A stretch of 64,000 nt of DNA. It comes from an uncultured Collinsella sp. (GTDB taxonomy: Bacteria; Actinomycetota; Coriobacteriia; Coriobacteriales; Coriobacteriaceae). The DNA lies in assembly GCA_934643145.1 (NCBI GenBank), contig CAKUBM010000009.1:1-64000 (forward strand), written 5' to 3'. Made by a program: the position numbers and the translations under genes. Positions 15,097 through 29,176 of the stretch are shown in pieces. The notes beneath the pieces were generated by a model. It was not told where the DNA came from. It was given only the letters and a program-made list of their open reading frames with translations, and made no database searches. Position 1 is the first letter of the stretch. Every line of letters starts with the position of its first letter.

Positions 15097-18000
15097 CTAG
15101 CGGCGCCTGCGGTACAGGGCCGCGCCGCCCGCGACGGCCAGCGCGCCGATGCCGGCCATGGCCGCGAGGGCCGCCGCCGGCAGGCTGCGGTCGCCGGTGT
15201 CGGGCATGCCGCCCTTGGAGCCGCCGCTGCCGGAGCCGCTATCGGAACCGCCGCCCGAACCGCCGCCCGGCGTGCCGGGGTTCTCGGGGGTGCCGGGGGT
15301 CCCGGGCTCCTCGGCGTAGCCGTTGGTGAAGACCGGCGGCAGGTTGGCGTCGCCCTCGTAGGAGACCTTCGCCGACAGGTAGCCCGTCTTGGAGCCGTCT
15401 GCCGCCTCGTCGCTCACCGTGACGACGATCTTGTGCACGGCCCTGTCGTAGGTCACGTGCGCCTGGCCGTCGTCGACCTCGCTCACCGTGAAGGTGTAGG
15501 TGCCGGCCTGCTTGAAGGTCAGCGCGTCGAACGTGACGCTGCCGTCGGCGGCGTTCCTGGCGGTCGACATGACCTTGCCGTCCCGGCTCTTGAGCTCAAA
15601 GCTGAACTGGCCCGCCTTGAGCTCGGCGCCCTTGAGCACCTTGGCGGCACCCAGCTTGAGGGTGACGGGCGCGGCCTCGTAGCCGTTGGTGAACGCCACC
15701 GAGTCGTCGCCCGTGGGATTGCCCTCGGCATCCACAAGCTCGTGCTTGACGGTGAGCTTGCCGTTACCGGCATCGGTGACCGTCGTGCGCACGCGGTACG
15801 TCGCCCTGTCGTACGTCACGCCGCCCGCCGTGCCGACGACCTCGCGCAGCTCGTAGCTGTGCGTGCCGGGCGCGGTGTAGGTGACCGGGTCGAGCGCGAC
15901 CGTTCCGTCGGCGGCGTTCCTGCCCGTCACCGCGACGCTCTCGCTGCCGTCGGCGGAAATCTCGACCAGCTGGAACTCGAACTCGCCCTCGACCAGGTCG
16001 CGGCCCTTGAGCTTCTTGTTCACCTTGATCTGGTCGGTGACGGAGCTCGGGGTGGGCTCCACGCCGTAGGTATTAGTGAACTCGAAGGCGCCCTTACCCT
16101 GGGGCGTGCCCTCGGCGGGCAGGACCTCCGCGGTGAGCGTGCCCTCACTGGTGTTCTCGACCACCTTGACCGTGAAGGTCCTGGTCGCCACCGCGTCGTT
16201 GACCACGCCGTCGACCGAGCCGGACTCGCTCACCCGGTAGGCGAACGTCTTGGCGCGCAGGCCGTCGCCGTCGATCTCGACGTCGTCGAGGTCGCTCGGC
16301 TGCTTGAACGTGACGCTACCCAGCTCGACGTTGCCGGCGGCGTCGTTGACCGCCTCGGTCACCGTCTTGCCGGAGGCGTCGACCGGGGCGGGCGCTCCGT
16401 CCAGCGGTGCAATCTTGAAGGTGTACTTGCCCGCGATGTCGGCCTGCGTCAGGCCGAGTCCGGCCTGGCCGAGTGTCAGCGTCTTGGTGCCCGCGAGATC
16501 GACCGTCGCCTCGTTGGTGCCGTAGCCGTTCACGAACGACAGCGTGTCGTCAGAGCCCTCGGGGTAGGTCACGGCCACGTCCAGCTTACCGTCTCCGCTA
16601 TCGGTCACCTTGACGGTGATATCGAAGCTCGACGCAGTCGCCGTCACGCCCGCGGGCAGCGCCGCCGTATCCTCGGAAACGGTATAGGGGATGGTCCAGG
16701 AGCCGTCGTCGGCCCTGGTGGCGGTACCGTCCGCTGCCATCTGCTCGAGCGCGCCGGTGGTGTAAGCGATGGGCGAGAACGTGAGTGCCGCCGCCTCGCC
16801 GTCGCCGGAGGCCCGGTTGGACGCGGTCGCGGCCACGCTGCCGCGGGCATCGCGGACGTAGAACGAGAACTCACCCGCCGCCGCGGCGCGGCCCGTCAGC
16901 GTCTTGGTGGCGCTGATAGCCACATCGCCCTCGCCCCCGAGCGTGCCGGTGGCCTCGTAGGAGTTCTGGAACGAGACTGTCACGGGCGCAGGCAGCGACG
17001 CAGCGTCGTCGGCCGTCGAGACCTCGCTGCGGGCGACCTCGACGCCGTCCTTGACGACCGTGGTCGTGACCGTGAGCTTGCCCGTCGCGGCATCGTAGGC
17101 GGGCGCGATGGTCACCGTGCGCGGCGCGGTGTCGTTGGTGTAGCCATCGCCGCCGAGCTTGGTCTCGGTGACGGTGAAGCGGTAGGCCTTGCCCGCGTCG
17201 GCGTCGGTGAACTTCACGTCGCTCTCCGCGGCACCGCCGACGAGGTCGACCAGGTCGGCCTTCCCATCGTCAGCCGCGGCCACGGCGTAGGCATCCTTGT
17301 CGGTCTTGAGGCCGAGCTTGGCGGCCGTCTCGGCGTCCGCGGTCACGGTGAAGGCGAACTGCCCCGCCTCCATGGCGCGGCCGGAGAGCGTCTTGGACAG
17401 GCGCACGCCCGCGCGGGCCGAGTAGTCGAGCTCGGTCGTGTAGGTGTTGACGAAGTCGCCGCCGCTCACCTCCGCGATCGCGGGCGTCGAGGCCGTGAGG
17501 TTGCCGGAGCCGTCGTCGGTCACGGTCACCGTCATCGTGGCGACGTGGCCGTCGTAGGCCACGCCGGCGATGGCAGAGCCGTCATCGGGCCTGACCTCGC
17601 GCACCGTGTAGGTGAAGGTCTTGGCGCGCACGCGCTTGCCGCCGACCTCGGCGAACCCGGCGTCCTTGATGTCATCGAACGTGTAGCGGATGGGGCCGAA
17701 GTCGAAGGCGACCCTATCGCCCGCCTTGGTGCCGGCGGCGGCCGTCACGCTGACGGTCTTGGAGCCGTCGGCAGACCCCTCGGGCATGGGGGCGCCGCCC
17801 TCGCCCGCGAGCGCGAACTGGAAGCTGTCGCCCTCCGCCCAGTCGCGACCCTCGAGCGTCTTGGTGAAGAGTCCCGCGGTGGAGACGTCCCTGCCCTCGG
17901 TGGCCGTTCCGTACGTGTTGGTGAACGCGACGGTCGCGCCGTCCTCGGTCACGGCGCCTTCGGCCTTGGAGCCGTCAGCCCCGTTGACCGCAGTCGTGTA

Positions 18001-21000
18001 GCCCTCGGCGGCGTCCTCGGCCACGGTGTAGCGCGCGCCCACGGGCAGGCCGGTGATGGCTTTCTCCTCGCCGTCCCTGAGCGTGAAGGTCGCCTTGCCG
18101 TCCGCGAACGTCACGGCGTGCTCGCCCTTGCCGAAGGTGCCGGAGACGGGCTCGCCGTCCCCGTCGGCCAGCGCGACCGTAAAGCCGAACTCGCGCTGGC
18201 TGTCACCGCCGACGACCGTCTTCTTGACGGTGAGGCTGCCGGTCTTGGCGGTGTTGGTAAAGACGGCCGCCTCGACCGTGCGCTCGGCAGCGTCGCCCGC
18301 ATCGTCGGTCAGCTGTGCAATCTTGGTCTTGGCAGACAGCTTACCGGCGCCGTCGTCAGTCACCGTGACGGTGGCACGATAGGTGGCCTTCGAGAACGTG
18401 AGTGTCGCCTCGTCACCCGACTGCTCGGTAATCACATAGGTATAGGTGCCGGGCTTGGTGTACTCGATGGTACCGAAGTTGCCGACCTGGGCATCCTTGT
18501 GCAGCTCAATCGTCGACACGCCGCTCTTGGCACCCTTGGGCATAGGCGCCTCGCCCTGGGCAGTCAGCGTCATGTTAAAGGCATCCGATGTCATCCAGTT
18601 GCGTCCGGAGATCTTCTTTTGCACCTTAAAAGCGTTTTCCACCTTCGTGGACTCCACGCTGTAGACGTTGGTGAAGCCCACCTGCGTCGCCTGTCCGACG
18701 GTACCCTTCTGGGGGTTCGCCTTATCGACAACCGCAAAGCCGTCCTCGCTCGTCATGAGCTCACCCTTGGAGTCGAGCTCCTGTACCTCGTAGTGCGCAC
18801 CCATGGGCAAGGTAACCGTGACGGAGCCGCCAGCCTTGAGCGCGATGGTGTCACCGCTCTTGATCTGTCCGCTTACATAAGTGCCATTGGTGCCACTGGG
18901 GCGACCGGCGTACGCAAAGGTGCCGGCCAGAGGCGTTGTGCCATCGGCCTGGTAGAGCAGCACCTTAAAGGTAAATGCCTTGTTGGGCGCGGTGATGCCT
19001 TCGGCGGCCGTGACCGTCTTGCTCAGCGTCAGGCGCCCGTCAGTGACCTCATCGGTAGTGGTGTTGGTCTTGACGGCAGGGTTGTTGCCGACCGCCACCG
19101 ACGCCTGGTTGGAAATATTGCCCGAAGCGCCACCGCTCTTAAACGCGTCCTCGGTCACGCGGACCTTAAACTGAACCGCGCCCTCCTTGCCGGCGGGAAC
19201 GTCCGCCAGCGTCCAGGTGAGGTTGCCGTCATTGTCCTTGGAGCCGGCATCCTTATGGTCGCCGGCGAACTCCACGAACTTGGTTCCCGCGGGAACGGCA
19301 TCGGTGATCGTCACCGTGGCAGACGCGCCCTCGGTGTTCTTGTAGCCGATAGTGTAGGTAAGCTCGTCGCCCAGCGCCACACCCGACCCCGTCGAATCCT
19401 GAGCATCGCTCTCGGACTTCTTGGGCACGTAGTTGGTCGTGGTGCCGGTATAGCTCTTGTTGTCAACCGTTACGGTAGCTTTGTTCTCAACGGTGCCGAC
19501 CGCACCCTGGGCATCCTTCACAGCGTCCTCGGTAATCTTGACGCGCACGCGCACCGAACCGTGGCTGCCCGCGGGTTGCTTACCCAGGTCCCAAGTAAGC
19601 GACTGGCCGCTCGCGACGCCCTTATCGGCATACTCGCCCTCAAAGGCCTCGAACACAACGCCGGCAGGAAGCTTGTCGGTCACGGTCACGAAGGCATCGG
19701 CTTCGGTATTGGCCCAGTTGATGGTATAGACGTAGGAGTCGCCCACAGAAAGCAGCTGCCCGTCGATGTCCACATCGGGCTTCGCGACCGCGCCAATCGT
19801 CTTGACCTTGTCACGCGTGTTGTGGAAAACAATCTTGCCGTTCTCGGTACCATCGCGATAGGTCACCTTGAACGTCAGCTTGCCGTTGTTGTTGTCGGTC
19901 ACCTCGAGCAGCACCCGACACGTCGCAGACGTATCCACGGGACGCACGCCCGCGGGCAGGTTGGCCAAGCGCTCCTTTGCCACCAGGTTAAAGCTGTAGG
20001 TGGTGGTGTGGTCGGCATTGTGGCGCTTGGTGGCAACGCCATCGTTGACGGCGCGGGCAAGGTCAATCGCCTGCTCATGAGTTTCGCTGGTAGCATCGCC
20101 AAGCTTAAAGTAAACCTTGCCGAAGTCGACCGTGGCTTTGCCGTTCTCACCTTCTTGGCTCGTACCCTCATCCATCTTTTTGAGCGATCCATCGGCCTTT
20201 TCGGCATACAGGTAAAACGTATACTGGTCAGCCTTGATCTTGTCGCCGGAGTCCATTACCTTCTCGGCAGTAAGACCCTCAAAGGTTCCGGTCGCGATGT
20301 AGCTGTTGGTGAAGGACACCTGGGCCTTGGCGGTACCGCTCTCGGGGCCAAAGGTCTTCGTATCGCGGGGCTTTTCAACGTCGTTGGCGTCATAGTGCTT
20401 GACCGTGGTCACGGTATAGAGCGAACCGTCGCGGCGCTTCTTAACCGCAATCTCTACCATCCAATAGGTGGAGTCGTATGTATAGCCGCGCTTGCCGCCG
20501 CCGTTTTCGACGATCTTGTAGGTGAACGTCTTGTCTGCATCTTCCGTCGCAAAGGTCAGGCCACCCAAAATGCCGGTATGGGACGTGCCATCGGCCTGCG
20601 GCTCATCGTTTGTCACGGTGAGCTTGCCCTCATCTGCGCGTAGCAGCTTGTTGAGCTTATCGGTCGAGACGTTGTCTTTGCCTGTCACCGTAAAGCCAAA
20701 CATGCCGGCATGCAGGTCGTGCCCGCTAAGCGTCTTGACGATCTCAAGACCGCCCTGGAGCTCGTAACTCGTTGAAGTTTGGTAACTATTGGTGAAGATG
20801 AAACCTTCCGAGCCGGTCGCACCATCGGCGCGGGCCACAAGCTTGCCGCCCTCATCAGTTACGGTAACGGTCACGGTATAGATGTGCTGGTCATACTTCC
20901 ACTCGCCGAGGCCGCTATTCGGGGCCAGCTCATTAATAGCAAACTTATACGTGCCCGGTTTGTTGAAAGTGAGCTTCGAAAAGTCAATCTTTTCGTGCTC

Positions 21001-24000
21001 CCCGTCCTTGAGGGCCGCCGTCGTTTGCTTCTCCTCAGCATAGCCGTTGTCCACGCTCATCGAAGATCCGGTGATGAGCTTGCCATCGATGGCAGTCTTG
21101 GTAGCATCGTCAGCCGCGGTCATAGCAAAGGTGAACTTGCCCGGAGCATCGGCACCGGCAACCACCTTCGTCACAGACGGGGTGTAGGTTGCCGCCTCGG
21201 TGACCGTATAGGTGTTCTTGAATTTGACCGTCGCGACACCGGTGGACGTTGCACCCGACGGATAGATCCACTGGCCCTCGAGCTCGTCCTTGCCATCGAT
21301 CTGCTTGCTTACCGCTGTCGTGACTCTAAGCGTACCGTCGCCGTTATCCGCCACGACAGCCTTAACCGTATGGATCATCTTGTCGTACGTATAGCCCGTC
21401 GCCTTGTCGTCAATCTCACTCACCGCATAGGTGAACGTCTTGCCGGCATCATCCTGAGTGAAGGTCAACCCACCCGCAGGTATCAAACTCACGGTCTTGG
21501 GGGCGTCGGCCTCGACATTTGCGGTCTCAAAGACCTTGCCGTCCGTGGAAATGCCAACCTTGCTGGCAGATATCTCGTCGGCAGGCTTGACGATATAACG
21601 GAACGTGCTCTTAGGCGAGCCAAAAATGGTCGCGTCCTTGGGGTACGTCAGCGTCTTCTCGATCCGCAGGCCGCCAGCGGCGCCATAGTCGAGGCTTGCC
21701 GCATAGCGGTTCACAAACGAGACGGTGGGCGTCGTGGCGCCGGCCACGCTTGCGTCGTACTGCTGCACGTAGGTAGTCGAATCTTGCTTGAGCTCGGTAA
21801 TCTTTTCGTCCGTCAGCGCGCTCGCGTCGGCGCCGTCGCCCAGCAGCTCCGTCACACCCGCGCCCTTGAGCACGGTCGTCACGGTATAGAGCTTAGCGGG
21901 GTCGTTCTCGCGTGCAAGAACCTTGACGAGCACGATAGCGTCACCAGTGTAGCCGGTGTCATAGGTGTAGCCGACAGCCGCAGGCTGGTTCTCGTGGATG
22001 CGATAGGCAAACGTACGCCCCAGGTCCTGTTCCGTGAGCTTGCGGGCAAAGAGCTTCTCTTGCCTGCTTGCGCCCACCACGGCACCGGACACGCCGGCCC
22101 CCGCAGCCTTATTGGACAGGCTAGCCTCGGCGCCGTCGACCGATGTCTGAACGCCGTTGTACCAAAGGCCCGTCACGGCAAAGGTAAACTGTCCCGCGGC
22201 AGAAGCGCGACCCTCAAGGGTCTTGCTGACCGTCACGCCACCAAAGGTGCCCGATGCATGGTACGCGTTGGTAAAGGCAGCCTTGTCGGTTACGACCTTG
22301 TCCGCATCGGAGGCACCGGTGTTGGCGTAGGTCACGCTCGACACGCGCAGCATGCCCGTGTGGTTGTTGCCCGACTCGTCCAGATCGGTCACCACAACGG
22401 TCGCGCGTGCGGTGTGCTTGTCCATGGACATGCCCGCTTGGCCATCCTGCGCAGCATCCTCGGTGATATTGAAGGTAAAGGTGCCCGCGCGGTTGAACGT
22501 CACGGTCGGGGCGGCTTCGATGCCAACAAAGGAGAACGATGCCACGCGCCCCGAATCGGGCGTGCTGGCGACAGCCTGGTTGGCGTTAACGGCAACAGCT
22601 CCATCCTTCACCGCCTGCTTCGTGGTCTTGCTCAAACCGGTCGTACTGGCATCATCCGTAGCGGCAGTGAGGTTAAAGGTATAGCTCTCGCCCTGGTTCC
22701 AGTCGCGACCGCTCACGGTCTTTTGGCCCTGCAGGGTCTCGCTCGTGGGCTCCACGCTATATATATTGGTAAAGGAAGGTGTGACATTCTTGTCCAGCTG
22801 CTTTACCGAGTTGTTTTCTGCGGCCTTGTAGTACTCGACCGAGGTCTGGATGCCGGCACCCTTCTTGGCGTTGCGCACCACGGCGTAGTAGACCGACCCG
22901 TCGTAGGTCATGCCCGCAACGCTGCCGAGATTCTCAGTAAACCTGTACACGTAGGCGCGTCCCGCATCCGGCTTGGCGGTATAGGAGATCGCCGGCCACG
23001 TCACCGTGCCGTCAGCGTTGTTGCCCACGGTCGCGGTGTTGCCCTCGGCATCCTCGGGCATGGGGGCCTTGATGCTCGTGTCGACCTTATCGGGATCGAA
23101 CGCTGCATTGTCGTCCGCATAGCCGCCCACACGCTCAAGCTTAAAGCTAAAGGCGTTCTGGGAAAGCGGGAAACTCCCGGCGTTATCGGTCAGGATCTTT
23201 TGAGCATGGATGATGATCTTCGCTTCGTGTGCATCGTAGCGATTGGTGAAGGTTGCGACCTTATCGGAAACATCCGTATTGGTGTCGACGCGCGCGTCGT
23301 TGCACTCCTGCACCACCTTCACGCTCTTAACGACCAGAGCGCCAGCCTGCTTGTCCTCCACCACGACCGTCGCGGCATAGCGAGCAGCAGAGTAGCTCAT
23401 GCCGTCTGCCCCGGCATCGGAGCCGGGGATAACCTCCGAGATGGTATAGGTGTACGTGCCGGGCTTGGTATAGGTAATATCGCCAAACGTTGCCTTCTGG
23501 GTATTCTTGGTGAACTCGACCGTCGCCACCCCGTCCTTGGCGCCATTGGGCATGGGGGCGCCGTCCTTAGCCGCAAGCTGCACGGTAAAGGAATCGCCAT
23601 CGGCCCAATCGCGACCTTCGAGCATCTTCTTGGCGCTCAGACCGTCTTTCGCCTCAAGCGTTACCGAGCTGGCACTGTAGTTGTTGGTGAACTCGAGCTT
23701 GTTATCGGCGGGAATCTTTCCGTCCTCGAGCGCGACGATCTTGCCCGTGATGGTGTTGCCGGTTCCAGGCTGCTCCTCGCCGCCGGCCTTGCGGCTCACG
23801 AGGCTAAAGCCAGCCGGAAGCACCGACTCGTCGGCAGAGCCGGTCACAGTGTTAACGATGCTCGCCAGCACATTGCCACTGGACTCCTCGCCCTTAGTGG
23901 TGAGCTCGCTCACGCTATAGCTGTCGCCCTTCTTAAGGTCGTATACGCGAATGGTCTCGCCGGCCTTGATGGAGTGGGTGCCGCCGTTATTGAGCATGAA

Positions 24001-27000
24001 GGAGTTGCCCACGGCCTTGCCATTCGCATCGAATACGTGTGCCTCATAGCCCTTCTCGGAATCCGGCAGGGTGAACTTAAACGTAAAGGTCAGGTCTTTG
24101 TCACCATCCTTAGTAGGCGCGGTAAGCCCCGTATCTGCCGTCACCGTCTTGGTCACCTGCAGGCGTGCCACGCGACGATCGGTATACTGCACGGCCGTTG
24201 CCGTGGTAAAGAGATGATTGAGCTGAAGCGTGCCCAGATCGGTGCCATTGGTGGCATCGTCGTCTTGATAAAGGGCCATGCGGTTGATGCCCGTATCGGC
24301 AAAGATGGTCGCCAGCTGGCCGTTGCGCTCACCACCGTCCTCGACATAGCGCAGGATGGTCTTGGTACCTTGCGTCGTCTTGTCATAGCGCATATGCATC
24401 AAGTTGCCCGCAAGAGAAGGTGTCACGCCGTTGGCGGTACTCGTCTGGCCCCATGTCAGGTTTCCCTCGTCATCTAAGCCAGTTGTACTCTGCAGCCTGC
24501 CCTTAATGTGCGTAAGTGTGTTGTCGATGGAGTCGGGAGAGCCGAACTGCGCCAGGGAGGCAATCAGCGAACCCGGGCCGCTCATGCTGCGCACACCGTC
24601 GCCTTCCTTGCCGGCATCCACATACACACCCGAATCATCCACGATTACCTTGGTGATGGTGTTGTTAATCTCATAGCCATCTGGACTTACAGACTCACGC
24701 AGGTAGTACGTACCCTTGATAAGGGGCTCATGATATGTCGAATCGAGCGGGAAGCATGCAGCGCCCTTAATGTCATACGGATAGGTCATGCCATTTGCCT
24801 GCACGGTGCTATACGGCGTGGCGCCGGTTTTAATGGCATACGTGCTGGGGCTATCGCCAGTAACGTCCTTAGCCTGGTACAGCTCAAACGTTGCGCCGTT
24901 CACGGGCTCGCCCAGGTCGTCAACCTTCTGCACAAACAGACGGTTCTGAACGTTGGTGAGGTGGATCACCGTAGAGAACTGCCTGTTTATCGTTTGATAT
25001 TTGACCATAGAGGTGTTGCCGATGGTTGCCCCCGCCAGAGACGATGCCGTGGTGTGATACACCGCCACGGTATATTCCGCCTCCGACTTATCCGTCATCA
25101 TGGCGGCGTACTTCTCGATATCTCCGGGCAGCGACCTAACCGTTACCTCGTAGTCGCCCTTGGTGTTGACGCCAAAGACGCTCGTATCTGCCGATTTGGC
25201 AGCCTCGACCGCACCGGCAATGCCGTGCGCGGAGCACAGCTTATAGCCATTGAGCGGGTTGCCCGTGACCGCCGTCCACGCGTCTTCGCTTGTGTGGTCC
25301 TCGCTCGCACCGGTGAGCTTGAGTACGACGGCAAACGTCGTACCCGAGCTAATGGCGTTGCCTTTATTGTCTTGCGTATCTTTATCTAGGGAAATAGTCT
25401 CCTTAGCGGCCAGATAGCCGCCGTTCAGCCACATGCGGCTACCCGTCCATTGTTCGTTGTTGGCTGTTGTGACCGTTGTTTGCGGCGCAACCACCACGCC
25501 GCCCGTGCCACTCGCCGCGGCCTGCTTGTACTGCAGATGCAACTCGCCTGGCGTTGCGGTGGTCGACGAGGTCAGACTCGAGCGATATCCCTCGGGCAGG
25601 CCTTCCTCTTTGAGTACAAAGTAGTCGTGCCCATCGGCATGCTGGTTATCAAACGAGAGCACGGAACCGTCCGACTTCATCCGAAGCACCAGCTGGCCAT
25701 TGGCGCCCGTCGTGCCCTGAGCGATGGCCTCACCCTGCTCATTCCAGTCGGCATCCGACTGATACAAAGCGAAGGTTGCGCCCTGGACAGCCTCGCCGTT
25801 CTGGTTGACCTTCTCGACCTCGGACGACGGCAGGGTGGTGAGGTTGAACTTGAGTGACATGTTCGATGCGCCCGCGCCGCGCTCCAGATAAAAGAAGCTC
25901 AGCGTGTGCTTGGTGCTGTCACGGAAGGTGCTGCCGGAGAAGTTGGTGGTATCTGCACCGGCGGCGTCGAACTTTGCCTTGATGGTGGTTTTTTCGATTT
26001 CCTGCTCGTCTCCATCCGCACCGTCAATATGACCGACTTTCACTTCGCCGGTAGCAAAGTTGATATCAAGCGTTGCCTTCTCGTGAATACCACCCAGATC
26101 GCCCACGAGTACGTCGTCGATGTAGACCCAGACGTCATCATCGCCCGAAAACTTAAAGATCATATCCTCGTTTTTGGTGGTCTTACCACCGTTAGGCTGG
26201 ACAAACTCCGTAGTCATGGACATGCCAAAGTGATGGTTGAGATCCGTGCTTCCATCAACGATCTTTTTAGGGGAGAGGTTGTTGCCGTTCTCATCAAAAA
26301 CCTTGCTTGCAGAGTCAAAGGGGAAGAACTGACCCAGATTGGTTTCACTACTCGTATCGCCCTTATATACGCCCGCTTTATCGTAGACGTCAAAGGAATT
26401 GGTCGTGGAGTTATACACAGCGTAGTTGCCGTTAGAGCCGTACGAGTCGTAGACGTAGTAACCATCCTTGAGCTGGAAGAGGCCCTGCACATTGTTGTAA
26501 ACGTCCTTGCCGCTCTGCTGGCCATTTTCCTGGCTGGCGCTGTTAAAGAGGTAATCGAGCGACTCATCGGTGTAGTTAACGCCCTGGTAGGTGCCATTTT
26601 TGATCTCCGGATAGCCCTTTACCAGTGTGTTCTTCACAAATGGAAGGCGCCCAAAGCCACCGGTGGTGCTCTTGCCCGTCCACTTGTTAATGCCCGTGCC
26701 GGCGCCACCATTGAACTTGAGCTGATGGTCTTTATTGATACCGGTGTTGTTATTCTTGTTGTCGTTGTTTATGTTCTTCGAGCTATCGTTATCGCCATCG
26801 ACAACCCAGTAGTCGAACAGGTTAACCGTGGTGCCGGTAGGATTCACCGTCTGCACGGTATGGTCGCTCACGGCAGCCGACGCACTCGTCGCGCCAAACA
26901 TGAGCGCGCACGCCGCCAGCGGGACGGTCAAAACCCTCAGAGCACGCTTGGCAGTATTGGTTTTTGTGCCAAAAGGCTCCAGTATTTCTCGAACTCTCGC

Positions 27001-27015
27001 ACACAAGCGATTCAT
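15097..27015 (-). CDS. Giant sortase-anchored adhesin with fibro-slime head and pilin isopeptide repeats
   Basis: This is a 3,972-residue wall protein. The signal peptide ends near SATSASA-AVSD. Residues about 50-390 form a fibro-slime/PA14-like domain with the hallmark KFSGDDDVWVYIDDVLVGDL. Cna-B/SpaA-like modules follow near 400-510 and 700-820 (NGEAVQGATFALYQ, GEPVNGATFELYQ). Then come about 17 Streptococcal-pilin isopeptide (FctA-like) repeats, each starting like TLEGRxxxxGxFxFxV and ending in FxNxY. Two DUF11-like modules (SVGDSYVYTINWANTEADAF and its neighbour) interrupt them. The C-terminus has a Gly/Ser linker, MPDTGD, a hydrophobic helix and YRRRR, a sortase signal. Lys-Asn isopeptide bonds would stiffen the rod. 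The start is ATG 27015 with GGGGAGGG upstream; a TTG five codons earlier is unsupported. The 3' third looks richer in GC than the rest. The promoter has a G9 tract. Confidence 0.95.
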   Translation of the reverse strand: MNRLCARVREILEPFGTKTNTAKRALRVLTVPLAACALMFGATSASAAVSDHTVQTVNPTGTTVNLFDYWVVDGDNDSSKNINNDNKNNNTGINKDHQLKFNGGAGTGINKWTGKSTTGGFGRLPFVKNTLVKGYPEIKNGTYQGVNYTDESLDYLFNSASQENGQQSGKDVYNNVQGLFQLKDGYYVYDSYGSNGNYAVYNSTTNSFDVYDKAGVYKGDTSSETNLGQFFPFDSASKVFDENGNNLSPKKIVDGSTDLNHHFGMSMTTEFVQPNGGKTTKNEDMIFKFSGDDDVWVYIDDVLVGDLGGIHEKATLDINFATGEVKVGHIDGADGDEQEIEKTTIKAKFDAAGADTTNFSGSTFRDSTKHTLSFFYLERGAGASNMSLKFNLTTLPSSEVEKVNQNGEAVQGATFALYQSDADWNEQGEAIAQGTTGANGQLVLRMKSDGSVLSFDNQHADGHDYFVLKEEGLPEGYRSSLTSSTTATPGELHLQYKQAAASGTGGVVVAPQTTVTTANNEQWTGSRMWLNGGYLAAKETISLDKDTQDNKGNAISSGTTFAVVLKLTGASEDHTSEDAWTAVTGNPLNGYKLCSAHGIAGAVEAAKSADTSVFGVNTKGDYEVTVRSLPGDIEKYAAMMTDKSEAEYTVAVYHTTASSLAGATIGNTSMVKYQTINRQFSTVIHLTNVQNRLFVQKVDDLGEPVNGATFELYQAKDVTGDSPSTYAIKTGATPYSTVQANGMTYPYDIKGAACFPLDSTYHEPLIKGTYYLRESVSPDGYEINNTITKVIVDDSGVYVDAGKEGDGVRSMSGPGSLIASLAQFGSPDSIDNTLTHIKGRLQSTTGLDDEGNLTWGQTSTANGVTPSLAGNLMHMRYDKTTQGTKTILRYVEDGGERNGQLATIFADTGINRMALYQDDDATNGTDLGTLQLNHLFTTATAVQYTDRRVARLQVTKTVTADTGLTAPTKDGDKDLTFTFKFTLPDSEKGYEAHVFDANGKAVGNSFMLNNGGTHSIKAGETIRVYDLKKGDSYSVSELTTKGEESSGNVLASIVNTVTGSADESVLPAGFSLVSRKAGGEEQPGTGNTITGKIVALEDGKIPADNKLEFTNNYSASSVTLEAKDGLSAKKMLEGRDWADGDSFTVQLAAKDGAPMPNGAKDGVATVEFTKNTQKATFGDITYTKPGTYTYTISEVIPGSDAGADGMSYSAARYAATVVVEDKQAGALVVKSVKVVQECNDARVDTNTDVSDKVATFTNRYDAHEAKIIIHAQKILTDNAGSFPLSQNAFSFKLERVGGYADDNAAFDPDKVDTSIKAPMPEDAEGNTATVGNNADGTVTWPAISYTAKPDAGRAYVYRFTENLGSVAGMTYDGSVYYAVVRNAKKGAGIQTSVEYYKAAENNSVKQLDKNVTPSFTNIYSVEPTSETLQGQKTVSGRDWNQGESYTFNLTAATDDASTTGLSKTTKQAVKDGAVAVNANQAVASTPDSGRVASFSFVGIEAAPTVTFNRAGTFTFNITEDAAQDGQAGMSMDKHTARATVVVTDLDESGNNHTGMLRVSSVTYANTGASDADKVVTDKAAFTNAYHASGTFGGVTVSKTLEGRASAAGQFTFAVTGLWYNGVQTSVDGAEASLSNKAAGAGVSGAVVGASRQEKLFARKLTEQDLGRTFAYRIHENQPAAVGYTYDTGYTGDAIVLVKVLARENDPAKLYTVTTVLKGAGVTELLGDGADASALTDEKITELKQDSTTYVQQYDASVAGATTPTVSFVNRYAASLDYGAAGGLRIEKTLTYPKDATIFGSPKSTFRYIVKPADEISASKVGISTDGKVFETANVEADAPKTVSLIPAGGLTFTQDDAGKTFTYAVSEIDDKATGYTYDKMIHTVKAVVADNGDGTLRVTTAVSKQIDGKDELEGQWIYPSGATSTGVATVKFKNTYTVTEAATYTPSVTKVVAGADAPGKFTFAMTAADDATKTAIDGKLITGSSMSVDNGYAEEKQTTAALKDGEHEKIDFSKLTFNKPGTYKFAINELAPNSGLGEWKYDQHIYTVTVTVTDEGGKLVARADGATGSEGFIFTNSYQTSTSYELQGGLEIVKTLSGHDLHAGMFGFTVTGKDNVSTDKLNKLLRADEGKLTVTNDEPQADGTSHTGILGGLTFATEDADKTFTYKIVENGGGKRGYTYDSTYWMVEIAVKKRRDGSLYTVTTVKHYDANDVEKPRDTKTFGPESGTAKAQVSFTNSYIATGTFEGLTAEKVMDSGDKIKADQYTFYLYAEKADGSLKKMDEGTSQEGENGKATVDFGKVYFKLGDATSETHEQAIDLARAVNDGVATKRHNADHTTTYSFNLVAKERLANLPAGVRPVDTSATCRVLLEVTDNNNGKLTFKVTYRDGTENGKIVFHNTRDKVKTIGAVAKPDVDIDGQLLSVGDSYVYTINWANTEADAFVTVTDKLPAGVVFEAFEGEYADKGVASGQSLTWDLGKQPAGSHGSVRVRVKITEDAVKDAQGAVGTVENKATVTVDNKSYTGTTTNYVPKKSESDAQDSTGSGVALGDELTYTIGYKNTEGASATVTITDAVPAGTKFVEFAGDHKDAGSKDNDGNLTWTLADVPAGKEGAVQFKVRVTEDAFKSGGASGNISNQASVAVGNNPAVKTNTTTDEVTDGRLTLSKTVTAAEGITAPNKAFTFKVLLYQADGTTPLAGTFAYAGRPSGTNGTYVSGQIKSGDTIALKAGGSVTVTLPMGAHYEVQELDSKGELMTSEDGFAVVDKANPQKGTVGQATQVGFTNVYSVESTKVENAFKVQKKISGRNWMTSDAFNMTLTAQGEAPMPKGAKSGVSTIELHKDAQVGNFGTIEYTKPGTYTYVITEQSGDEATLTFSKATYRATVTVTDDGAGKLSAKTKIAQLTDDAGDAAERTVEAAVFTNTAKTGSLTVKKTVVGGDSQREFGFTVALADGDGEPVSGTFGKGEHAVTFADGKATFTLRDGEEKAITGLPVGARYTVAEDAAEGYTTAVNGADGSKAEGAVTEDGATVAFTNTYGTATEGRDVSTAGLFTKTLEGRDWAEGDSFQFALAGEGGAPMPEGSADGSKTVSVTAAAGTKAGDRVAFDFGPIRYTFDDIKDAGFAEVGGKRVRAKTFTYTVREVRPDDGSAIAGVAYDGHVATMTVTVTDDGSGNLTASTPAIAEVSGGDFVNTYTTELDYSARAGVRLSKTLSGRAMEAGQFAFTVTADAETAAKLGLKTDKDAYAVAAADDGKADLVDLVGGAAESDVKFTDADAGKAYRFTVTETKLGGDGYTNDTAPRTVTIAPAYDAATGKLTVTTTVVKDGVEVARSEVSTADDAASLPAPVTVSFQNSYEATGTLGGEGDVAISATKTLTGRAAAAGEFSFYVRDARGSVAATASNRASGDGEAAALTFSPIAYTTGALEQMAADGTATRADDGSWTIPYTVSEDTAALPAGVTATASSFDITVKVTDSGDGKLDVAVTYPEGSDDTLSFVNGYGTNEATVDLAGTKTLTLGQAGLGLTQADIAGKYTFKIAPLDGAPAPVDASGKTVTEAVNDAAGNVELGSVTFKQPSDLDDVEIDGDGLRAKTFAYRVSESGSVDGVVNDAVATRTFTVKVVENTSEGTLTAEVLPAEGTPQGKGAFEFTNTYGVEPTPSSVTDQIKVNKKLKGRDLVEGEFEFQLVEISADGSESVAVTGRNAADGTVALDPVTYTAPGTHSYELREVVGTAGGVTYDRATYRVRTTVTDAGNGKLTVKHELVDAEGNPTGDDSVAFTNGYEAAPVTLKLGAAKVLKGAELKAGQFSFELKSRDGKVMSTARNAADGSVTFDALTFKQAGTYTFTVSEVDDGQAHVTYDRAVHKIVVTVSDEAADGSKTGYLSAKVSYEGDANLPPVFTNGYAEEPGTPGTPENPGTPGGGSGGGSDSGSGSGGSKGGMPDTGDRSLPAAALAAMAGIGALAVAGGAALYRRRR

Positions 27016-27088
27016 GAAGGCCCTCCCCAATCCATGAGGACGGCAAGCAGTGGCTCGCTATATGTGTGTCGTCGTCCCCATCGATGCA

Positions 27089-27119
27089 AATATACGCCCC
27101 CCCCCGCGCAGAAACGCAA
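27089..27119 (-). promoter_or_regulatory. Adhesin promoter with nine-G spacer tract
   Basis: On the minus strand, TTGCGT (27119-27114) and TATATT (27094-27089) are separated by 19 bp that include nine consecutive G (27105-27097 in minus order). -10 matches the consensus at 5 of 6 positions. Loss of two G would give the optimal 17-bp spacing. The 5' leader would be about 66 nt. Confidence 0.55.
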
Positions 27120-27259
27120 GGCGGGTCATCGCTATATACTTAAAAGTGTAGCAATTTGAGTGACCCGAAATTCCCCATCAGGTTGCAACTCAGGCCCAAA
27201 ATCGAACCATTCGCGCCACACAAGGTAGCTAAAACAGCCCGTCCCAAAATGACTGGTCG

Positions 27260-27328
27260 AAGTTGCGGTGGAATAGTTCTTGTTTGGCTGCTCAGGCCGC
27301 AAAAACAGGAACTATTCCACCGCAACTT
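27260..27328. repeat. 20-bp perfect inverted repeat after the TadA-GlxK gene
   Basis: AAGTTGCGGTGGAATAGTTC (27260-27279) and its exact complement (27309-27328) enclose 29 bases. Pairing extends imperfectly inward (TTGTTT against AAAACAG). It begins 15 nt past the stop codon of the minus-strand gene. No T-run follows directly. Confidence 0.8.
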
Positions 27329-27343
27329 ATCGAGGGATGCGTT

Positions 27344-29125
27344 TTAGATGCGGGCGAAGTCGTAGGCTTGGGCGGCGGCTTCGCCGGCGCAGATGAGATT
27401 GACTGTGGCTTCCCGCGGATCGAGCGCCTGGTCGAGGGGCATAGGCTTTCGGCAGACGGGAAGCACCAAGTCGATACCCTGCTCGTACACCGCATCCAGG
27501 TTGTCGGCACGACCGCCCACGACAGCGACCACCGGCTTGCCATATCGCTTGGCGCGGCGGGCCACACCCACCGGCGCTTTGCCGGCGGCGGATTGCTCGT
27601 CCATATTGCCCTCGCCCGTTATGACCAGGTCGACATCGCGCACGCGCTCGTCAAACCCAATCAGATCGAGCACCGTCTCCACGCCCGAACGCAGCCCCGC
27701 GCCGAGCGCCAGCAGCGCGGCACCCAGGCCGCCGGCGGCACCGGCACCGGGCACGCCGAGCACCGAGCCAAATGTCCGTGCGCCTTCGGACACGCGCAAC
27801 AACCCTTGAGCCCGCGCCTCGGCAATCGCCGCATCGAGCAGGCGGCCGTAGCCGACCATCCAACTGTCGTACTTGCGCAGCACCTCGGCGTCACCCGTCG
27901 GCAGGCCCTTCTGCCCGCCGAACACCGTCAGCGCCCCACGGCGCCCCACAAGCGGATTCTCGACATCGGAAAGCACGACGATGCGCACGCCATCCAACGC
28001 CCGCACCGCCGGCACCAGATCAACACCGGCCACTTGCTCAAGGCCCGCGAGCCCCGGCGCGATATCGCAGCCACGGTCGTCGACAAGACGCGCGCCCAAC
28101 GCCTGTAGCATGCCAGCGCCGCCGTCGTTGGTGGCACTGCCGCCCAGTCCTATATATAGAGTCTTCGTCCCCGCGCGAACCGCGCGGAGTATGAGCTCGC
28201 CCACGCCATAGGTTGTAGCAGCCAGCGCCGACGACTCCGTGCAAGGCGAGTACCCGATGCCCGCGGCTTCGGCCATCTCGATGACCGCGGACTCGCGCTC
28301 GACATCAACCAGCATCCGGGCAGGCACACGCTTGCCCAAGGGACCTGCCACCTCGCAGGTCACAAGCTCGCCACCGCAGGCGGCAACGGCATCGAGCGTT
28401 CCCTCACCACCATCTGCCAGCGGCAATGTGCGCACCTCGGCATCGGGCCAAACGCGTCGTACGCCTTCGGCAACCGCCGCCTCTGCCTGCGCACTCGAAA
28501 CACTACCCTTAAAGGAGTCGATCGCCAGCAGCACACGGCGGGGCCGGCGGCACGCAGGACCAAAGTTGAGCGCCTCAACGGCAATATCTTTGGCACACGC
28601 GAACGCCTCGGCATGAGCGGCATGTGCCTCAAGATCGACCCCACAACCGCAGCCAGTACCATCGGTGCCACGCAGCCCACTAAAATAGCTGCTCAACACC
28701 TCACGACACTCGTCTGCCAGCACGCCGGCGGTCACATTAAACCGATGATTCAGGCGCGAGTCGGCATTCAAATCGTATAGGGATCCCAACGCGCCCGCCT
28801 TGGCGTCGCTCGCGCCATACACGCAGCGCCCCACGCGCGCGTTGACCATAAGGCCCGCGCACATGCAGCAGGGCTCGAGCGTCACATAGACGGTGCAGTC
28901 GGAAAGGCGCCAACGGCCGAGCGTCCGAGCGGCGGCACACAACGCCGCAAACTCAGCATGCGCCGAAGGGTCTTGATCGAGCTCGCGACGATTGTGCGTC
29001 CGCGCGACGATCTCGCCCGCGCACACCACCACGGCACCAATGGGCACCTCGCCCACCGCCGCGGCAGCGCGCGCCTCGGCCAGCGCCTCGCGCATGAACT
29101 TCTCGTCGATTTCGGTGATCGTCAT
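27344..29125 (-). CDS. Fusion of tRNA-adenosine deaminase (TadA) and glycerate kinase
   Basis: One uninterrupted frame of 593 residues. Residues 1-150 are TadA: zinc ligand and proton shuttle H56-A-E58, then P85-C86-C87-M88-C89, the HAE and PCxxC signature of the enzyme that makes inosine-34 in tRNA-Arg. After a linker rich in Ala/His/Cys (about 155-195), residues about 200-590 are a type-1 (GlxK/GarK) glycerate kinase: LLAIDSFKGSVSSAQAEAAV, LPLADGGEGTLDAV, GLGGSATNDGGAGML and DLVITGEGNMDEQSAAGKAP. The start ATG 29125 has AGGGAAGG upstream. An ATG at 29176 would run over the tRNA promoter. I see no stop or frameshift between the halves. The two activities are unrelated, so coupling may be only expressional. 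tRNA-Ser lies divergently upstream. Confidence 0.93.
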   Translation of the reverse strand: MTITEIDEKFMREALAEARAAAAVGEVPIGAVVVCAGEIVARTHNRRELDQDPSAHAEFAALCAAARTLGRWRLSDCTVYVTLEPCCMCAGLMVNARVGRCVYGASDAKAGALGSLYDLNADSRLNHRFNVTAGVLADECREVLSSYFSGLRGTDGTGCGCGVDLEAHAAHAEAFACAKDIAVEALNFGPACRRPRRVLLAIDSFKGSVSSAQAEAAVAEGVRRVWPDAEVRTLPLADGGEGTLDAVAACGGELVTCEVAGPLGKRVPARMLVDVERESAVIEMAEAAGIGYSPCTESSALAATTYGVGELILRAVRAGTKTLYIGLGGSATNDGGAGMLQALGARLVDDRGCDIAPGLAGLEQVAGVDLVPAVRALDGVRIVVLSDVENPLVGRRGALTVFGGQKGLPTGDAEVLRKYDSWMVGYGRLLDAAIAEARAQGLLRVSEGARTFGSVLGVPGAGAAGGLGAALLALGAGLRSGVETVLDLIGFDERVRDVDLVITGEGNMDEQSAAGKAPVGVARRAKRYGKPVVAVVGGRADNLDAVYEQGIDLVLPVCRKPMPLDQALDPREATVNLICAGEAAAQAYDFARI

Positions 29126-29176
29126 CGTTCGCCTTCCCTGTTGCAAATTCAAAACGATGCTATCATTACGACTCAC

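Follow-up and report, generated by a model that had tools for sequence, protein, structure and literature searches.

Phase variation through poly-G or poly-C tracts in promoter spacers is established for porA and fetA (frpB) of Neisseria where a G or C homopolymer lies between the -35 and -10 elements of a surface-protein gene and its length alters transcription (PMC3899988, PMC5320596). Repeat number in the promoter of an adhesive appendage also alters the -35/-10 spacing in the hifA/hifB system of Haemophilus influenzae, although the repeats there are TA dinucleotides in a bidirectional promoter (PMC3899988). In the gut actinobacterium Bifidobacterium breve UCC2003, deep sequencing revealed length variation of G tracts at the sortase-pilus genes bbr_0113 and bbr_1889, and the authors mention, without detail, further G tracts in promoter spacers (PMC9187656).

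The tract studied here lies in front of a giant adhesin gene of Collinsella, in a 64-kb window (by which we mean the whole stretch of DNA analysed). Collinsella is a common human gut genus that differs from Neisseria in phylum and in cell wall. The window tract probably belongs to the porA/fetA type of promoter-spacer phase variation and would not represent a new principle; unlike in Neisseria, its target is a giant sortase-type adhesin. With B. breve UCC2003 it shares a gut actinobacterial setting, a sortase-dependent surface structure and G-tract length variation. The switches studied in B. breve are coding-sequence frameshifts, whereas the window tract sits in a putative promoter, and the frameshift type resembles the sister adhesins of Collinsella described below rather than the window promoter (PMC9187656). 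A search of the open-licence literature (Collinsella with phase variation, slipped-strand mispairing, and adhesin or sortase) found no report of a promoter-spacer tract in Collinsella, and a search of open-licence papers for phase variation by homopolymeric tracts in gut Actinobacteria gave no match.

The adhesin gene and its putative promoter

Read on the minus strand, the region runs from TTGCGT (27119-27114) through a 19-bp spacer to TATATT (27094-27089), followed by a leader and the ATG at 27015. The features are listed below; L001 and L002 are the two relatives of this locus.

15097 to 27015, minus strand: adhesin gene, 3,972 aa, from frame translation and domain matches
27021 to 27028, minus strand: ribosome-binding site GGGGAGGG, called by eye, preceding the ATG at 27015
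27058 to 27060, minus strand: TAG stop (adhesin frame) after the tract and ahead of the ATG, which in the window blocks any frameshift fusion across the tract
27089 to 27094, minus strand: -10-like hexamer TATATT, read in the sequence, identical in L001 and L002
27097 to 27105, minus strand: G9 tract within the 19-bp spacer (27113-27095), G10 in both relatives
27114 to 27119, minus strand: -35-like hexamer TTGCGT, read in the sequence, identical in L001 and L002
27120 to 27209, minus strand: upstream region with an AT-rich block (AAATTGCTACA.TTTTAAGTATAT), alignable among all three copies, any two of which differ by 10-18 substitutions over 90 bp
27260 to 27328, minus strand: inverted repeat separating the upstream gene from the adhesin promoter, its 26-nt arms 96% complementary, a possible terminator

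By its architecture, the 3,972-residue protein is a sortase-type giant adhesin. It begins with a signal peptide (called by eye) and contains a fibro-slime domain (residues 260-326), 15 FctA (Spy0128-like) isopeptide stretches, and DUF7601/DUF5979 and SpaA-like matches. Its C-terminus consists of MPDTG, a hydrophobic stretch and RRRR, and we take the MPDTG end to be a sortase sorting signal. In agreement with the original prediction of a sortase-anchored adhesin of this length, the fibro-slime domain, the FctA repeats and the MPDTG end indicate that the putative promoter would drive a surface-exposed protein.

Upstream of the adhesin and on the same strand lies a single 610-aa frame (27344-29176, minus strand) that encodes a deaminase domain fused to a glycerate kinase, all 610 aa of which align in L001 and L002. 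With the inverted repeat between it and this gene, the adhesin could well be transcribed from a promoter of its own. A terminator scan called none at the repeat (27260-27328). The arm letters TTCCACCGCAACTT also adjoin G9, G10 and G12 tracts at three further loci (L078, L010 and L015, respectively), and the arm is perhaps a dispersed palindrome.

The minus-strand reading bore out the prediction of a -35 TTGCGT and a -10 TATATT 19 bp apart with nine consecutive G between them: the G occupy 27105-27097, and the spacer ends in CG. As in porA and fetA, the homopolymer thus sits between a -35-like and a -10-like element, as far as can be judged from the letters, with a weak -35 (three of six consensus matches, against five of six for the -10). 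Using a score of our own (consensus matches less a spacing penalty), TTGCGT/TATATT was the best-scoring pair in 27016-27343, by a narrow margin (7 versus 6.5 for the next nine), and none of the 12 hexamer pairs listed surpassed its 8 of 12 matches. A generic promoter scanner that accepts only spacers of 16-18 bp and at least 4 of 6 matches per hexamer called no promoter in 26900-27420; the observed spacings of 19 bp (G9) and 20 bp (G10) both fall outside that range. The hexamers of the promoter called by eye are present, form the best pair locally and are unchanged in three copies, but the poor -35, the narrow margin and the silent scanner leave TTGCGT/TATATT a weak call.

On the plus strand, the C9 at 27097-27105 is the sole run of G or C longer than six within the 64-kb window. 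Runs of nine or more were found in 19, 5 and 2 of 60 simulated 64-kb windows under first-, third- and fifth-order Markov models, respectively; one such run per window is only moderately rare and proves little by itself. With 2 to 19 of 60 simulated windows containing one, depending on the model, we dropped sheer rarity as proof. The tract is instead set apart by its position, its conserved flanks and its change of length in relatives.

Tract length at the same locus in Collinsella aerofaciens

Using the first 500 adhesin residues as query against a species-level genome collection, a search that reaches close relatives only, we matched two loci, both from C. aerofaciens, with best segments at 81% (L001) and 80% (L002). 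Both occupy the same place as the window locus, with the full-length 610-aa gene just upstream at 88-89% identity. All three copies share every letter of TTGCGTTTCTGCGC-Gn-CGTATATTTGCATCGATG apart from n, which is 9 in the window and 10 in L001 and in L002, and between -35 and -10 tract length is the only difference among them. Tract length therefore differs between strains within conserved flanks (three copies, two lengths), as read from assemblies and with a possible error of one base. Comparison across strains had been proposed as a check of the original prediction, and the length indeed proved variable. The presence of 9 or 10 G at this place in two named C. aerofaciens assemblies as well as in the window makes an assembly artefact unlikely.

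Substitutions were counted for window-L001, window-L002 and L001-L002, in that order. The segment that begins at the -35 and reaches to about +7, which with the tract spans 44-45 columns, has 1, 0 and 1; the 90 bp upstream of it have 10, 18 and 15, and the initial 114 bases of the coding sequence have 6, 13 and 15. The 60-bp leader (27075-27016), with 4, 4 and 2, is fairly conserved too, and much of the AT-rich block is also kept in the three-copy alignment. The contrast between the promoter block and its surroundings is clear only against L002, being slight for window-L001 (1 in 44 versus 6 in 114).

Besides the window, the promoter was present in just two of the 43 Collinsella genomes searched (those of L001 and L002), and viral contigs searched for it gave 0 matches. 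The intergenic stretch before the adhesin promoter in L002 (3860-4040) is largely unlike that of the window and L001, though the upstream gene is the same.

Sister adhesins with a G tract in the first codons

A protein search with the first 400 adhesin residues found relatives in 18 of 43 Collinsella genomes. Ten of these 18 have a G run of at least seven near the gene start, namely G017, G038, the genomes of L001 and L002, and six that carry sister adhesins. In the remaining eight no G run of this length was seen in the stretch examined, which need not include the real start of the gene when the match is partial.

The six sister adhesins (L097-L102) are 52-55% identical to the window adhesin and carry the tract after 16 codons, following GGGGAGGAAATTATG. 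Its length is G7 in genome G005, G9 in G010, G10 in G026, G7 in G008, G8 in G007 and G7 in G012, making four lengths among six genomes whose flanks are near-identical. The frame runs on into the signal peptide and the adhesin in the G9 copy alone (L098, in G010). It ends after 20-27 codons in the remaining five, so that five of the six copies seen are in an out-of-frame state. The sister tract is likely a translational switch, with the caveat that an internal ATG (GTG in one) 54 bp past the tract could restart translation. A further relative, in G017 (L021), has a G10 in its coding sequence and is in frame as it stands. The adhesin family appears to have come under poly-G control twice and by two mechanisms, through a promoter spacer in the window and through the first codons in the sisters.

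Proposed mechanism and alternative readings

We consider it probable that the G tract acts as a contingency (phase-variation) element, placed between the -35 and -10 hexamers of a promoter that belongs to the adhesin itself. At replication, G would be gained or lost by slipped-strand mispairing, and each step would shift both the spacing of the hexamers (19 bp for G9, 20 bp for G10) and the way they face each other around the helix. The altered spacing and facing may change promoter use by RNA polymerase, and a clonal population would then contain cells with differing amounts of the sortase-type adhesin. We infer here that the promoter is in use, that tract length affects transcription and that switching occurs within a strain. 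A G7 tract (17-bp spacing) differing from G9 is the textbook expectation. The phase-variation reading of the original prediction gains support from the G9 versus G10 and G10 tracts between otherwise identical letters from -35 to -10, from the exclusion of a frameshift in two of three copies, and from the length-variable sister tracts, whose lengths (7, 9, 10, 7, 8 and 7 in six genomes) point to the adhesin family as a target of G-tract length change.

If Collinsella adhesins switch randomly by G tracts, a single strain would comprise cells with different surfaces, and comparing strains or assaying binding without regard to tract length would give misleading results. Of greatest interest is that a single adhesin family may have two kinds of G-tract switch. 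Because deep sequencing can read the tract, the idea is directly testable.

A real promoter in which the tract is a spacer or a regulator-binding element, drifting slowly in length with no role in switching, would fit the finding of G9 and G10 alone in three copies. We regard this as unlikely, since the tract is the sole change between -35 and -10 and the sister tracts show four lengths in six genomes. It is quite improbable that transcription starts from a different promoter, perhaps one near the AT-rich block at 27154-27133, with the tract falling in an untranslated leader and affecting RNA structure or translation from there. No pair among the 12 listed exceeds TTGCGT/TATATT in matches, and TATATT with its immediate surroundings is unchanged in all three copies, even if nine other pairs score close behind (6.5 versus 7) and the AT-rich block is largely conserved as well.

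Between the tract and the ATG, the adhesin frame contains a TAG in the window and a TGA in L001, and is open through the tract in L002. Owing to these stops, a start upstream of the tract could not be fused to the adhesin at any tract length in the window or L001; in these two copies the tract is not in frame with the adhesin coding sequence, and a frameshift switch is ruled out for these two. A translational switch, with the tract in an upstream leader frame and slippage joining or parting the leader and adhesin frames, is thus very improbable despite the same layout in the sister adhesins, the open frame of L002 and an ATG upstream of the tract in all three copies, given the stopped frames, the ribosome-binding site of the ATG at 27015 itself and a one-base leader indel in L002, as expected for non-coding DNA. 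Because of the stops and of the ribosome-binding site before 27015, the promoter reading is better than a frameshift, and a transcriptional switch is favoured, the frameshift being excluded in two of three copies.

G tracts across the genus

The layout of the window promoter is shared by L122 in G030, where TTGACG, 19 bp including a G9, and TATACT precede a gene for a DUF6020 protein, with the start codon 67 bp from the first base of the tract. Two weaker cases lack a good -35 by eye: in G011, a G10 lies directly before TATACT, upstream of a 340-aa protein that is membrane-like by eye and has no Pfam family, and in G038, a G10 followed by ATGC and TATAGT precedes an adhesin relative. Over the 43 genomes, a tract of at least eight G followed by TATANT within 6 bp occurred at 6 sites versus 4 in a reversed control, with no demonstrated excess; two of the six are the promoter studied here and one (G024) is probably coding. 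A genus-wide excess of G tracts before -10-like boxes is accordingly unsupported.

Runs of at least nine G were found in all 43 Collinsella genomes. As context we took 58 further such stretches from seven genomes (G002-G008; for G008, among the runs listed), leaving out five duplicate loci (L003, L004, L016, L035 and L036) and L094; many of the 58 lie in coding sequence or at places that are hard to assign. We then compared 93 G-tract instances, an incomplete set made up of the window, L001, L002, L122, about one run from each of 29 genomes and the further G002-G008 runs, without the same five loci, L094 (a low-complexity tangle) and L095-L125 except L122. Thirteen families of flanks were seen more than once in this set. 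Tract length varies in 10 of these, including the window's family, and two of the 13 consist of repeats inside a single genome. One recurring tract family has G9 in seven and G10 in two of nine matching genomes (43 searched). Tract-bearing genes, as assigned by eye, encode secreted coiled-coil and other secreted proteins, Flp-type pilin-like proteins, sugar transferases and one DNA methylase.

This pattern fits a genus that uses G tracts often. We lean towards the view that Collinsella varies its surface through a wide range of poly-G contingency loci (adhesins, Flp-type pilin-like proteins, secreted coiled-coil proteins and sugar transferases), in which one adhesin family would have been captured two or more times and in different ways, through the promoter spacer in the lineage of the window and through the first codons in that of the sisters.

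Genomes differ widely in the number of such runs: G031, G032 and G033 have 270 to 989 overlapping G9 places each, versus mostly under 35 elsewhere, and G008 is also well above most genomes among the runs listed, though less so than these three. At eight loci (L040, L042, L037, L063, L045, L005, L066 and L064), tracts of G9 to G11 lie early in frames, from about codon 7 to codon 105, and several of them recur between genomes with differing lengths.
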